From Halodesulfovibrio sp. MK-HDV (lineage in GTDB: Bacteria > Desulfobacterota > Desulfovibrionia > Desulfovibrionales > Desulfovibrionaceae), in contig NZ_WYDS01000011.1 in assembly GCF_009914765.1 (NCBI RefSeq), positions 78,928 through 142,927 on the forward strand: a stretch of 64,000 nt of DNA. The letters are read 5' to 3'. The notes beneath the pieces are model-generated. The model did not search any database. It saw only the letters and a list, made by a program, of their open reading frames with translations, and was not told the DNA's origin. The stretch's first letter is position 1. Each line of letters opens with the position of its first letter. A program made the position numbers and the translations under genes. Shown one piece after another: positions 21,847 to 51,572 of this stretch.

Positions 21847-24800
21847 ATGACAGTCTCCCGTAGGCAATTCCTCAAGCTTTCTGCAGGCGCTGCCACCGCG
21901 TCTGCATTTGGCGGACTTGGCATTTCTTTAAAGCCAACCGTCGCGAGAGCTGAGCTCCAAAAGCTTAAATGGGCTAAACAGACAACGTCCGTATGTTGTT
22001 ACTGTGCTGTAGGCTGCGGCCTTATTGTACACACGGCTAAAGACGGTGAAGGCCGTGCAATCAACGTAGAAGGCGATCCGGATCATCCGATCAACGAAGG
22101 TTCCCTTTGTGCGAAAGGCGCGTCCATCTGGCAGCTCGCAGAAAATGCAAACCGACCACAAACTCCATTATACCGTGCTCCTAACAGCGGAGAATGGAAG
22201 CCAGTTTCATGGGACTGGGCACTCACTGAAATCGCTAAACGTGTCAAAAAGACTCGTGACAAATCTTTCCAGCTCAAAAACGACAAAGGCGAACAAGTTA
22301 ACCGTACCGAAGCAATCGCTTCTGCGGGCTCAGCAGCTATGGATAACGAAGAGTGCTGGGCATATCAGTCATTACTCAGATCTCTCGGCTTGGTGTACGT
22401 AGAACACCAAGCACGTATCTGACACAGCGCAACTGTAGCGGCTCTGGCAGAGTCGTTTGGACGCGGTGCGATGACAAACCACTGGATCGACCTTAAGAAC
22501 AGTGACTGTGTATTAATCATGGGCAGTAACGCTGCCGAAAACCATCCGATTTCTTTTAAATGGGTGATGAAAGCTAAAGACAAGGGCGCAACACTTATCC
22601 ACGTTGACCCTCGCTTTACCCGTACTTCCGCTAAGTGTGATGTATATGCTCCTATTCGCTCCGGTGCGGATATTCCGTTCCTTGGCGGTCTGGTCAAATA
22701 CATCCTCGATAATAACAAATTCTTCCACGAGTATGTTGTTAACTATACCAACGCATCATTTGTAGTTGGTAAAGACTTTGAATTTAATGACGGTTTATTC
22801 TCCGGCTTCGATCCGAAGAAAAGTTCCTACGACAAGTCAAAATGGGCTTTTGAAATGGATGACAAAGGTGTACCGGTTCGTGATGAATCGCTCAAAAACC
22901 CGCGTTGTGTATTTAACCTGCTTAAAAAGCACTTTGAACGTTATGACGTAGATACCGTCTCCACCGTTACCGGAACTCCTAAAGAAGATATTCTTAAAGT
23001 TTACGAAACATACGCAGCATCCGGTGTTCCAGATAAGTCTGCAACCATCATGTACGCAATGGGCTGGACTCAGCACACTGTCGGCGTTCAGAACATCCGC
23101 ACAATGGCCATGGTGCAGCTCCTCCTTGGCAACATCGGCGTAGCCGGTGGTGGCGTGAACGCCTTGCGTGGTGAATCAAACGTACAGGGTTCCACCGACC
23201 ACTGTCTGCTCGTCCACATTCTGCCTGGCTACCTTGGTACACCTAAGTCCAAATGGTCAGACCTTGCAGCGTACAACAAAAATTGTACTCCTCAGTCTGC
23301 AGACCCTATGTCCGCTAACTGGTGGGGCAACAAGCCTAAGTATGTATCCAGCTTTGTAAAAGCAATGTATCCGGAAGCATCGCCTGAAAAAGGCTACGAA
23401 ATGCTGCCAAAGCTTGATGCACACAAGCAGATGACTGAATACTACTGGCTTTCCATGTTCGAAAAAATGCACAAAGGTCAGTTTGACGGCTTCTTTGCAT
23501 GGGGACAGAACCCTGCCTGCGGTGGCGCAAACGCCAATAAAAACCGCGAAGCAATGGCAGAACTGGACTGGCTTGTTAACGTAAACATCTTTGACAACGA
23601 AACAGCCTCCTTCTGGCGTGGTCCTAAGATGGACCCGAAAGATATTAAGACAGAGGTCTTCTTCCTTCCGTGTGCTGTTTCCATTGAGAAAGAAGGTTCA
23701 GTTACAAACTCTGGTCGCTGGATGCAGTGGCGCTACAGAGGACCTAAGCCATACGGACAGACACTTCCTGACGGTGACATCATCCTTAAACTCACCGACA
23801 GAATTCAGCAGCTCTACAAAACAGAAGGCGGCGCATATCCTGATCCTATCGTAGGTCTTGGCCTTAACGATTGGCAGAACAGCCATGGTCATTTTGACCC
23901 GCATGGTATTGCAAAACTTATCAACGGTTACTTCTTAAAGGATACCGAAGTTAAGGGTAAGCAGTTCAAAAAAGGCCAGCAGGTTCCGAGCTTTGCCTAC
24001 CTTAAAGATGACGGCTCCACCTGTTCCGGTAACTGGCTCTACTGTGGTTCCTACACAGAAAAAGGCAACATGGCTGCCCGCCGTGACAAAACTCAGAATG
24101 GTGCACAGGCAAACATTGGTCTGTACCCTAACTGGGCATGGTGTTGGCCTGTAAACCGTCGTATTCTTTACAACCGCGCATCAGTTGACCTTAACGGTAA
24201 ACCGTATGCACCTAAGAAAGCGGTTATCGAATGGACTGGTGACAAAACCAAATGGCAAGGCGACATTCCTGATGGCGGCTGGAAACCGGGTACAAAGCAC
24301 GCATTTATCATGCGTAAGCACGGCTTCGGTCAGATTTACGGACCGGGACGCGCAGACGGACCATTCCCAGAGCACTATGAACCGCTCGAATGTCCAATTG
24401 CGAAAAACCCATTCTCTTCCCAGCTGCACAACCCTACTGCTTACCAAATTAGCAGTGAGGAAAAAGCAGTTGCCAACCCGCGCTTCCCTTACGTTGGTAC
24501 AACCTACCGCGTAACAGAGCACTGGCAGACTGGTCTTATGACCCGTTATCAGGGTTGGTTGATTGAAACAGAGCCACAGTTGTTCTGTGAAATCAGTGAA
24601 GAACTTGCGAAGAAAGAAAACATTGATAACGGCGAGACGGTTAACGTTTCCAGCCTACGCGGCAAGCTCGAGTGTGTTGCCATCGTTACCAAGCGCATCA
24701 AGCCTTACAAAGTCCATGGTCAGGACGTACATCTCGTTGGCCTGCCTTGGCACTATGGCTGGGTGACACCGAAAAACGGTGGTGATTCTGCAAACCTCCT

Positions 24801-48479: not shown

Positions 48480-48992
48480 ATGTCCAATCCTGTTCTTGCT
48501 GCTTTACAAGAGCGCCGCAGCATACGAAAATATACTGATCGCGAAGTTACCCGCGAAGAAATCACTGCAATGCTGGAAGCCGGTCGCTGGGCACCAAGTG
48601 GAAAAAACAATCAGCCTTTCCGCTTCATTGCGCTTCGTCCAAATGATCCACGGATTGACGGATTAGCAGATTGCACGATTTACTCACATATCGTACACAA
48701 TGCAGCTCTGATGATTGGCGTTTTTCTCGACAAAAATTGCCTGTACCACGAATTAAAAGATCATCAGTCCGCTGGCGGTTGTATTCAGAATATCATGCTC
48801 GCGGCACATTCTCTCGGTCTTGGCTCTGTATGGCTTGGACAGATGATGAACAATGCTGAGCAGGTTCTTGATGTTCTGTCCCTTGATACTGACACATATG
48901 AATTCATCACATTTATTGCCATCGGCGAACCTGCACAGGAGGGAACCTCCTCACGTAAGCCGCTGGAAGATATTATGCTGGAGCAATTTTAA
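48480..48992 (+). CDS. Nitroreductase-family flavoprotein
   Basis: The 170-residue FMN-dependent oxidoreductase has the N-terminal RRSIRKYTDREV and WAPSGKNNQPFRFIAL motifs of the family and GLGSVWLGQMMNN later. The substrate is unknown. It has a strong ribosome binding site (GAGGAG), and its stop overlaps the next start (TAATG), so it is cotranslated with the metallo-hydrolase. Confidence 0.9.
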   Translation: MSNPVLAALQERRSIRKYTDREVTREEITAMLEAGRWAPSGKNNQPFRFIALRPNDPRIDGLADCTIYSHIVHNAALMIGVFLDKNCLYHELKDHQSAGGCIQNIMLAAHSLGLGSVWLGQMMNNAEQVLDVLSLDTDTYEFITFIAIGEPAQEGTSSRKPLEDIMLEQF

Positions 48993-49618
48993 TGCAAGTA
49001 AAAACATTCCCTTTAGGCCCGCTTGAAACAAATTGCTACGTTCTTTTCCACGAAGGAAAAGCTGTTGCAGTTGATCCTGGTGGTGAACCGACTACTGTCG
49101 TCGAGTTTTTGAAAGAAGAAGGCCTGGCCCTTACTCATATTCTTGTTACTCATTTTCACTTTGACCACTTGTACGGAATTAAAGCACTGCAAGACGCAAC
49201 AGGTGCAGTCGTCATTAGTGGCACTGAAGATACTTTCCTTCTCGATTCCGAAGTTGGTCAGGGCGGCATGTGGGGATTCCCTAAGGTTCCTCCATTCACC
49301 TTTACCTCAATTGCAGAAGGCGACCACACCTTTATGGATTTAGACTGTAAAGTACTCGCCACACCGGGTCATTCCCCTGGCAGTCTTTCCTTTTTCTTCC
49401 CTGCTGCAAAGGCAGTGTTTGTAGGCGATGTATTATTCTACCGCGCCATTGGTCGTACCGACCTGCCGGGTGGTGATTTTGATGTTCTGAAAAAGTCAGT
49501 AACAGAAAAAATCTTCGCACTCCCACCTGAAACCGTAGTATATTCAGGTCACGGACCACATTCATCCGTGAACGACGAGCAAATTAACAACCCGTATTTT
49601 TCTGACTTCCAGCGCTAA
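48992..49618 (+). CDS. MBL-fold metallo-hydrolase (glyoxalase II-like)
   Basis: The 208-residue protein has the metal-binding THFHFDHLYG motif, later His and Asp ligands in PGHSPGS and VGDVLFYRAIGRTDLPGG, and the final His in YSGHGPHS. The length and the GRTDLPGG element are typical of YcbL-type hydroxyacyl-thiol hydrolases. The start overlaps the nitroreductase gene. A long hairpin follows the stop. Confidence 0.9.
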   Translation: MQVKTFPLGPLETNCYVLFHEGKAVAVDPGGEPTTVVEFLKEEGLALTHILVTHFHFDHLYGIKALQDATGAVVISGTEDTFLLDSEVGQGGMWGFPKVPPFTFTSIAEGDHTFMDLDCKVLATPGHSPGSLSFFFPAAKAVFVGDVLFYRAIGRTDLPGGDFDVLKKSVTEKIFALPPETVVYSGHGPHSSVNDEQINNPYFSDFQR

Positions 49619-49622
49619 AAAG

Positions 49623-49655
49623 TTTGTTCAGGCACTAACTTAGTGCCTGAACAAA
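49623..49655. terminator. Strong hairpin after the metallo-hydrolase gene
   Basis: A perfect 15-bp inverted repeat, 49623-49637 with 49641-49655, loop ACT. No T tract of normal length follows, so it may be a weak or Rho-assisted terminator or an RNA-stabilising hairpin. Confidence 0.5.
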
Positions 49656-49798
49656 CAATAATATCAGACTGTTGATCAATCATCCGGTACAAACACAGTA
49701 CGTTTGTTTTGCAGAACATTGGTCATTAGCAGCTGGTACGTTAGCGTAAGGCTAGGCGCACAAACTTAATACGGGGGTTTCATCGATCTGGAGTTATC

Positions 49799-50047
49799 AT
49801 GACAACACACAATGAAGACACCGACACAACTGTAGCTGATTTACGAAATGCATGTTGAGGCTTGGGACTCGAGATAAGTTTTTATCTCGGCTTTCAGAAG
49901 AAGAACAGAGTCCTTCTTCTGCTTCCCGCTAAGGCACATGCTCCGCTGGAGTATGCACTGGAGAAATATCCTCAGTGGCAATGTGAAATCCAAACAGATG
50001 ATGACACAGAGCTTTCAGCTTTGTGCAAGCGTGCTGCAAAGAAATAA
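49799..50047 (+). CDS. Candidate selenoprotein of unknown family (in-frame UGA, C19-U20)
   Basis: The frame starts at ATG 49799 with GGAG five bases upstream, runs 19 codons, meets TGA at 49856-49858 and continues in the same frame for 62 more codons to TAA. With the UGA read as selenocysteine it gives 82 residues, with C19-U20-G in NACUGLGLE and further Cys near residues 62 and 76. A perfect hairpin starts 11 bases after the UGA. The part after the UGA has no usable start of its own (a TTG at 49862 lacks ribosome-binding spacing). I do not recognise the family. A thiol-disulfide or peroxide role would fit a Cys-Sec pair. A flavodoxin-fold reductase follows 26 bases later. The alternative is a decayed gene with a nonsense mutation. 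Confidence 0.6.
49870..49889 (+). promoter_or_regulatory. Candidate SECIS hairpin of the unknown selenoprotein
   Basis: CGAGATAA (49870-49877) pairs perfectly with TTATCTCG (49882-49889) around the loop GTTT. It begins 11 bases after the UGA and the loop lies 19 bases after it. Size, distance and a G at the first loop position fit the known bacterial SECIS pattern. Confidence 0.6.
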
Positions 50048-50073
50048 TTCTGCAGCTGCTGGAAGGAGAGATG

Positions 50074-50709
50074 ATGAACGCACAACAATCTTTTGCCAAT
50101 GCTCTTCAAATATTAGGGTGCAGCGCCCGTAAAGGTGGCAACACTGACGATGCAGCAAGACTGTTTGCCCAAGGGTACGAAGCTGCTGGTGGACAAACAC
50201 AGACGCGTTTTATGCGCGACTATACCGTCCGGCACTGTACAGCATGTGAAGCGTGCGCAGTTCCCGGTAATAAAAAATGTGTGCAGGAAGGTAAAGACGA
50301 CAGCTCAGAACTCTATTCTATGCTGATGGAAGCACCATCGCTGTTTATAAGCTCGCCGATCTATTTTTACCATCTGCCGTCCATCTTTAAAACGTTCATA
50401 GACCGTTGTCAGTGCTTCTGGTTCCGCCAACATAATCGTGACCCATTTGTACTTTCTCTTCCACCGAGAAAGGCATACATCTGCCTTGTTGCAGCACGTC
50501 CTGTCGGCGACCAGCTATTTCACGGTTCATTGCTGACACTAAAATATTTTCTGTCTCCGTTTAATATCAGCCTGGTAGAACCACTGCTTATTTACGGAAA
50601 AGACGGCCCTGATGAACTGGCAAATGATCCGGAAACCATTGAGCGGATTAAGGACTATGCAACGGCAGCGTACAACGACACTGTCCCTCGTTTTTCAACC
50701 CAAAAATAA
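50074..50709 (+). CDS. Flavodoxin-fold NAD(P)H-dependent oxidoreductase with Cys cluster
   Basis: The 211-residue protein is of the FMN-reductase/iron-sulfur flavoprotein type. It has a flavin-phosphate loop near GCSARKGGNTDDA, then CTACEACAVPGNKKC (about residues 57-71), the Cys pattern that holds a [4Fe-4S] cluster in such flavoproteins, and SSPIYFYHLPSIFKTFIDR. The frame is open upstream, but ATG 50074 (or 50071) follows GGAAGGAG. It lies directly after the candidate selenoprotein and before comF, probably in one transcript, so it may be a redox partner of the former. Confidence 0.85.
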   Translation: MNAQQSFANALQILGCSARKGGNTDDAARLFAQGYEAAGGQTQTRFMRDYTVRHCTACEACAVPGNKKCVQEGKDDSSELYSMLMEAPSLFISSPIYFYHLPSIFKTFIDRCQCFWFRQHNRDPFVLSLPPRKAYICLVAARPVGDQLFHGSLLTLKYFLSPFNISLVEPLLIYGKDGPDELANDPETIERIKDYATAAYNDTVPRFSTQK

Positions 50710-50726: not shown

Positions 50727-51572
50727 ATGCATAGTGTTTTTGCTTTACTCAAGAGTACTGCCGCGTTTCTGGGATTAGATGAAACCCGATGCGTTTCATG
50801 CTTTGCGCCCTATAGTCCGGTGAAGGAAATGTCATTTCGTTCATTGTACGAAGAAAAGAGCGCTCTGCCTGATAAAACAGAATACACAAAAAGGCTCCAT
50901 CACCAGTGGAGCCTTTCACCCCAACTTTGCCCAGATTGTCTGCGCCACTTGGCGCCCCGTTCTCAAGGCTATTGTCCAGATTGCGGCATGCTATACGCAA
51001 AAGCGGTCGGTGCCCCGTCCCGCTGCTCTACCTGTATGATTACTCCACCGCCGTGGACACACATAACATTCTACGGTGCCTATGAAGGCATCCTGCGAGA
51101 GCTGCTTCTTAAACATAAATTCCACGGCAGACTTGATGCAGGGCTCACACTTGCCCGCTTGCTCGCAGCTATATATTCACCTCGAGAAACTCCTCCTGCC
51201 GCAGTTGTACCAATCCCGCTCCATGAGTCCCGTCTTCTCCATCGCGGTCATAACCAAAGCATGTTATCCGCAAAACTCATCGCACAAAAAATTGAAGCTC
51301 CACTTTTGCCGGATTTACTTCGCCGAAATCGTGAAACAGCTCCACAGGCAACTTTAAGTAAAAAAGAACGCAACCAGAACCTATCCGGCGCGTTCACTGC
51401 AACTATCCCCACCTCATTCCAAAATGCTCACATTCTGCTTGTGGACGACATTGCCACAACAGGCTCAACCTTACGACAGGCCGCGAGAACTCTTCTTGAA
51501 GGCGGCGCTGGCTCTGTTGAGGTTGCCATCATGGCTCGAACACCTGAGCCAGAAAATGTGATCAAAAAATAG
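50727..51572 (+). CDS. comF: ComF-family phosphoribosyltransferase-like protein
   Basis: The 281-residue protein has N-terminal zinc-ribbon Cys pairs (CPDCLR, CPDCGM, CSTC), the ComF middle KHKFHGRLDAGLTLARLL and the PRPP-binding motif LLVDDIATTGSTL near the C-terminus. Family members act in DNA uptake or recombination, though the precise activity is debated. It starts about 18 bases after the preceding gene. Confidence 0.9.
   Translation: MHSVFALLKSTAAFLGLDETRCVSCFAPYSPVKEMSFRSLYEEKSALPDKTEYTKRLHHQWSLSPQLCPDCLRHLAPRSQGYCPDCGMLYAKAVGAPSRCSTCMITPPPWTHITFYGAYEGILRELLLKHKFHGRLDAGLTLARLLAAIYSPRETPPAAVVPIPLHESRLLHRGHNQSMLSAKLIAQKIEAPLLPDLLRRNRETAPQATLSKKERNQNLSGAFTATIPTSFQNAHILLVDDIATTGSTLRQAARTLLEGGAGSVEVAIMARTPEPENVIKK

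Follow-up and report, generated by a model that had tools for sequence, protein, structure and literature searches.

A gene at positions 49799-50047 on the forward strand of a 64,000-nucleotide stretch of DNA from Halodesulfovibrio sp. MK-HDV almost certainly encodes a selenoprotein, with selenocysteine (Sec) inserted at the UGA that forms codon 20. The whole stretch is called the window below, and all positions are numbered within it. We further consider it probable, though with clearly less confidence, that this 82-residue protein has a TusA fold, that Sec20 and the preceding Cys19 make up a sulfur-relay or redox site, and that the adjoining flavoprotein reduces it. A preliminary description of this DNA had proposed a selenoprotein with a Cys-Sec pair and a selenocysteine insertion sequence (SECIS), and that proposal is supported by the conservation of the TGA, the covariation of the hairpin, the presence of the Sec machinery, and an aligned Cys in paralogues. 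The features of the gene are as follows.

49790..49793, forward strand: ribosome-binding site GGAG, 5 nucleotides 5' of the ATG (from the sequence)
49799..50047, forward strand: coding sequence of the predicted 82-residue selenoprotein, with codon 20 UGA as Sec and the TAA included (from the sequence and homologues conserved across the UGA)
49853..49858, forward strand: Cys19-Sec20 codons TGT TGA (from the sequence; Cys stands ahead of Sec in 67 of the 68 loci that have the UGA)
49870..49889, forward strand: SECIS hairpin with arms 49870-49877 and 49882-49889 and loop GTTT at 49878-49881 (from folding and covariation)

Conservation of the Reading Frame across the UGA

The frame runs from the ATG at 49799 through 19 codons to the TGA at 49856-49858, which directly follows a Cys codon, and then through 62 codons to the TAA at 50045-50047. 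The sequence and its translation bear out this layout and the ribosome-binding site as first described, and also the statement that the part after the TGA lacks a credible start of its own: it holds no ATG, and nothing start-like comes before a TTG at 49862. When the read-through protein was used as a query, 31 of 59 genomes matched (E ≤ 0.01; the window's own genome counted), each with exactly one in-frame TGA, and all nine other genomes of the genus were found to match (9/9). A profile query reached 168 of 348 genomes of the order Desulfovibrionales (E ≤ 0.001), with the TGA carried by every match among the matches listed; on a sample of the phylum it reached 6 of 395 genomes, all from the window genome's own family. 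The 168 genomes take in at least two that match through a Cys paralogue only (G613 and G616), as well as G468, which has Cys-Pro-Cys at the site, and G686, which has a degenerate copy.

We read the form of codon 20 in 69 loci, one per genome, after removing repeat genomes and the loci that are Cys paralogues or degenerate (L045, L089, and L092-L103) from those found in the genome searches. The homologues are conserved on both sides of the UGA, and the codon is TGA in 68 of the 69 loci and a sense codon in one (L086). Loss of the residue had been named at the outset as an outcome that would count against a selenoprotein; it was seen in just this one genome, the rest of the set keeping the UGA. 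Neither TAA nor TAG occurs at codon 20 in any of the 69 loci, and because the search read all stops through, either would have shown up there. The terminal stops of the 68 UGA-bearing loci are mixed (35 TGA, 21 TAA, one of which is an early stop in L081, and 12 TAG), so the lineage is not simply a user of TGA. In named records, 24 of 24 loci carry the TGA (Pseudodesulfovibrio, Desulfovibrio, Solidesulfovibrio, Salidesulfovibrio, Halodesulfovibrio, and others), a set that overlaps in part with the genomes of the 69 loci. Two copies from a single genus look to be decaying: L081 (G668), where a TAA lies 36 codons past the UGA, and L092 (G686), where many conserved residues are lost; the UGA is still present in both.

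Among the 68 loci, the residue before Sec is Cys in 67 and Gly in one, and the residue after it is Gly in 62, Arg in four, Ala in one, and Lys in one. Asp14, Sec20, Leu30, and Trp60 are invariant in a 30-member alignment and Arg16, Cys19, Gly21, and Glu25 nearly so, with the motif U-G-[LVI]-[GS] in most members. Over the 13 codons 5' of the TGA, the six closest copies change at rates of 0.16, 0.17, and 0.57 at codon positions 1, 2, and 3, as expected for a translated protein.

A Covarying SECIS Hairpin Follows the UGA

The hairpin of the window has eight Watson-Crick pairs and a GTTT loop, lies 11 nucleotides 3' of the TGA, and is extended by a flanking U-G pair. A 45-nucleotide stretch that contains it folds at -13.6 kcal/mol (z score -2.3), with 3 of 200 shuffles as good; in a 181-nucleotide stretch the same hairpin forms, while the whole is less exceptional (z score -1.4, 17 of 200 shuffles). 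For the comparison with relatives we used 66 loci, which are the 69 minus L084 and L085 (both with the UGA) and L086 (without it). Relatives usually have a stem of 7 bp and a loop of 6 nucleotides, most often GGTTGG or AGTTGG, and the 8-bp form with the GTTT loop is found in the window and in three more of the 66 loci (L004, L006, and L090). At least six of the seven pairs form in 63/66 loci, and a G stands at loop position 2 in 65/66. The loci below six pairs in the common register are L024, L030, and L079, and by eye the last two pair one step shifted. The element had been called a near-ideal SECIS; the 8-bp GTTT hairpin is present and folds, the hairpin covaries, and the common form among relatives is the different one given above.

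Covariation was measured against shuffles that do not preserve relatedness among the sequences. In 30 sequences, 91.7% of cells are paired and 16 cells carry a double change, as compared with 5.1 in shuffles (0/500 reach it); in 68 sequences, 66 of them distinct, the figures are 95.2% and 36, as compared with 2.1 (0/500). Hairpin registers slid along the 68 sequences are 37-67% paired. The number of further pair types is not exceptional, being reached in 136/500 shuffles on the 68 sequences and 392/500 on the 30, and the count of pairs that show a double change is likewise not exceptional on the 30 sequences (228/500) and is reached in 12/500 shuffles on the 68. The basal pair is C-G in five rows, all of them close relatives of the window, and this change may represent one event.

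Selenocysteine Machinery in the Host Genomes

The genome encodes selB above its curated cut-off, selA, and a tRNA-Sec with anticodon TCA; selA and selB are located on other contigs than the selenoprotein gene. Across the order, selB is present in 155 of 168 matching genomes versus 129 of 180 others (Fisher P 7e-7, uncorrected for relatedness). Each of the 13 matching genomes in which it was not found has at least 180 contigs or is at most 85% complete; in G465 the selB gene is visibly broken across two contigs, and possible pieces of it are present in G687 and G707. A second in-frame UGA lies in the window at 22420, with 210 open codons before it, 820 after it, and the context ARIUHSATVAALAESFGRGAMTN. 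From the look of the sequence we take this frame to be the selenocysteine-containing alpha subunit of formate dehydrogenase, FdhA, consistent with the earlier remark that fdhA carries a Sec UGA.

Cysteine Forms, Loss of Sec, and Truncated Database Entries

A family of paralogues (the L045 type, here called A3, with the motif xCGLVP) has 71 database members (E ≤ 0.01), and in an alignment of L045 with ten of the 71 the Cys that aligns with Sec20 is invariant. The A3 profile matches the selenoprotein profile with an hhalign probability of 97.5% (E 8e-12). The two are thus homologous, with the invariant Cys at the place of Sec20, and they differ in that the A3 proteins are about 100 residues long, have CGLVP and an FGxGGxW motif, and carry no UGA at the site. 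None of five A3 paralogues scanned had a Pfam match. The A3 loci L045, L089, and L093-L103 have Cys-Gly at the Sec-Gly position, and in 4 of 13 inspected loci the gene immediately 5' is what we take to be mnmE, whose product presumably acts in tRNA wobble-uridine modification. A Cys form of the selenoprotein itself was found in P0002, a full-length database protein known from its protein record only, which has KCCG where others read KCUG. A search with P0002 matched only itself and one 60-residue protein, and a scan of genome contigs for the Cys-Cys form turned up no close relative. In L086, from a draft genome that is 85% complete (G468), Cys-Pro-Cys stands where G042 of the same genus (L030) has Cys-Sec-Gly; the metallo-beta-lactamase (MBL), FMN reductase, and ComF neighbors described below are kept, and selB above the cut-off was not found. 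Sec therefore appears, as judged from these sequences, to have been lost in G468.

These forms bear on the alternative that the TGA is an ordinary stop, in which case a leader of 19 codons would be followed by a distinct gene of 60 codons, the two being kept as a translationally coupled pair. In some members an ATG does occur within a few codons past the UGA, and of the 42 database proteins that match the profile, 40 start a few residues past the UGA, leaving P0002 and one protein with an unrelated start (P0011). We regard this alternative as very improbable: the window offers only the TTG as a start for the second part, codon 20 is never TAA or TAG although the terminal stops are mixed, the hairpin covaries, and both the paralogues and P0002 read through the site with Cys. 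With 40 of 42 entries beginning after the UGA, nearly all members of the family in the searched database are truncated proteins.

A Predicted TusA-like Fold with Sec at the Catalytic Position

The predicted model has a beta-alpha-beta-alpha-beta-beta fold with Sec20 just ahead of helix 1, where it aligns with the catalytic Cys in the TusA CPxP motif. On the strength of this model, a TusA-like fold is likely. The preliminary description had recognized no family; no family profile matches, which stands, but the assignment can be improved to a predicted TusA/SirA-like fold with Sec at the position of the catalytic Cys. With TusA/SirA proteins (PF01206; YeeD/TsuB) the selenoprotein shares the predicted fold over about 75 residues and a reactive residue located six after a conserved Asp and before helix 1; it differs in having Sec for Cys, a UGxG-type motif for CPxP, an extra Cys before Sec, and the invariant Trp60. 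None of 30 members matches the PF01206 profile and the selenoprotein members do not have the CPxP motif, and we therefore do not file the protein as TusA.

The CPxP Cys of TusA proteins takes sulfur from a desulfurase, and that of YeeD bears thiosulfate and persulfide adducts, with release of sulfide (PMC11073785). YedF, a TusA-DsrE fusion, is tied to selenium metabolism by genome context (PMC2432076, PMC5322559). It has in common with the selenoprotein a TusA-like domain and a connection to selenium; it differs in carrying a DsrE domain and is not called a selenoprotein in the accessible text (PMC5322559), whereas the protein described here has a single domain and is encoded beside MBL and flavin genes.

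Conserved Neighbors and the Proposed Sulfur Relay

Four genes surround the selenoprotein gene on the same strand. Each locus was read with a flank of about 1.5 kb, and the neighbor counts in the 69 loci are therefore lower bounds.

48480..48992, forward strand: nitroreductase-family protein, in 47/69 loci
48992..49618, forward strand: metallo-beta-lactamase-fold hydrolase, glyoxalase-II (GloB)-like but below the GloB cut-off; conserved upstream neighbor, 61/69 loci
50071..50709, forward strand: FMN reductase or flavodoxin-fold protein with CxxCxxCx7C; conserved downstream neighbor, 63/69 loci
50727..51572, forward strand: ComF/GntX-like protein, below both curated cut-offs; next downstream, with ComF in 61/69 loci

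The pairing behind the earlier suggestion, a possible reduction of the selenoprotein by its flavodoxin-fold neighbor, is thus kept in 63/69 loci. The motif CxxCxxCx(3-12)C is retained in 63/63 FMN reductases of the first locus set, and we take it to be the pattern of iron-sulfur (Fe-S) flavoproteins, which points to a putative Fe-S cluster. For the MBL hydrolase, the best Protein Data Bank (PDB) rows are a Lactamase_B protein and hydroxyacylglutathione hydrolases, with a persulfide dioxygenase lower, and the best NCBIfam row is GloB, below its cut-off. The MBL and FMN reductase genes occur together in 16 of the 24 named loci, and eight of the 24 lack all four neighbors, five of these eight being from Solidesulfovibrio. 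At L158 3700-3946 (Solidesulfovibrio alcoholivorans) and at L041, the gene appears to follow what we take to be a UPF0016/GDT1-type membrane protein gene and not the MBL gene. The window has a 16-pair inverted repeat (49622-49656) in the interval that separates the MBL and selenoprotein genes; it is terminator-like on the minus strand only. The MBL match of several relatives ends far nearer to the selenoprotein gene than it does here.

The most far-reaching reading, to which we assign a probability of roughly 0.4, is a Sec version of a sulfur carrier of TusA fold, with Sec in place of the persulfide-bearing Cys, that would take up sulfane sulfur as a selenopersulfide, with the adjacent Cys as the resolving residue, a dedicated Fe-S flavoprotein reducing to sulfide, and an operon conserved across Desulfovibrionales. 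In this relay, which we infer from the fold, the register, and the neighbors, Sec20 would accept a sulfane sulfur, the donor being thiosulfate, polysulfide, or a persulfide; attack by Cys19 would then release sulfide; and the flavin protein, with its putative Fe-S cluster, would reduce the resulting selenenylsulfide again. The steps as laid out for Sec20, Cys19, and the flavoprotein are offered tentatively, at somewhat less than even odds.

The protein might instead be a small Cys-Sec oxidoreductase acting on peroxides or disulfides, its TusA-like fold being a common alpha/beta arrangement. The adjacent Cys and Sec are reminiscent of the GCUG tail of mammalian thioredoxin reductase, and two of the neighbors, the FMN reductase and the nitroreductase, are general redox proteins. 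Two points also count against a sulfur carrier: the sequence homology to TusA is weak, and in a second fold comparison of the model the IF3 and Alba folds score close behind TusA. In that same comparison, however, the first four rows are TusA-family proteins; Sec20 lines up with the Cys of TusA, and the PDB relatives of the MBL hydrolase include persulfide dioxygenases besides hydroxyacylglutathione hydrolases. We consider such an oxidoreductase rather unlikely. Less likely still is a selenium carrier or sensor, in which Sec20 would bind selenide or a selenotrisulfide and deliver selenium instead of sulfur. The genome-context link of YedF and the presence of selB in most matching genomes are in keeping with that role; on the other hand, the four nearest same-strand genes include no selenium gene, selA and selB sit on other contigs (selD was not searched), and another locus of the genome (L126) encodes a TusA-domain protein with the length of YedF, examined in its TusA part only.

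Relation to Described Selenoproteins

Pfam and NCBIfam 20.0 gave no match above chance level for any of the 30 members; in NCBIfam the window protein has no match at E ≤ 1, and other members have single chance-level matches only. The 2026 review PMC13188914 tabulates 119 families or subfamilies, and within that table none is TusA-like and no entry corresponds by motif and domain. The absence of a match in Pfam, NCBIfam, and this table supports the earlier claim that the protein is undescribed. The CU-motif selenoproteins of the review's Table 1 (KCU-star, SaoC, SaoL, HgcA, the Csac_0668 type, and MbdU) share a Cys directly followed by Sec; they are set apart by the names and domains given in the table, and our protein has no match in NCBIfam, whose coverage of the table was not checked for each family. 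The deep-Sep families, hypothetical protein DG (GUxG) among them, are likewise small, domain-less selenoproteins of the same phylum (PMC12013277) but have another motif, and again our protein lacks an NCBIfam match. By its own statement, that study may miss families that lack Cys homologues; its row for each of the two Desulfovibrionia genomes ends in 0, which we read, with the column heading unseen, as no new candidate. The accessible text of a 2006 survey lists selenoproteins of D. vulgaris and D. desulfuricans without this one, the presence of the gene in both strains being unchecked (PMC1794560). The available portions of PMC1914089, PMC8318568, PMC5029168, and PMC9312934 yielded nothing on the family under the terms searched. 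We found no description of it in the literature, supplements and subscription journals lying outside the search, and as far as we could search it is an undescribed selenoprotein family.

These findings add an apparently undescribed selenoprotein family, present in many genomes of one order and for the most part within a conserved gene cluster. Since the database searched has almost only post-UGA fragments, the gene is mis-annotated in these bacteria. The Sec, Cys, and lost forms make up a ready natural set for comparison. If the fold and register are true, Sec occupies the sulfur-carrying position of a TusA-like protein, and a selenopersulfide relay becomes testable.
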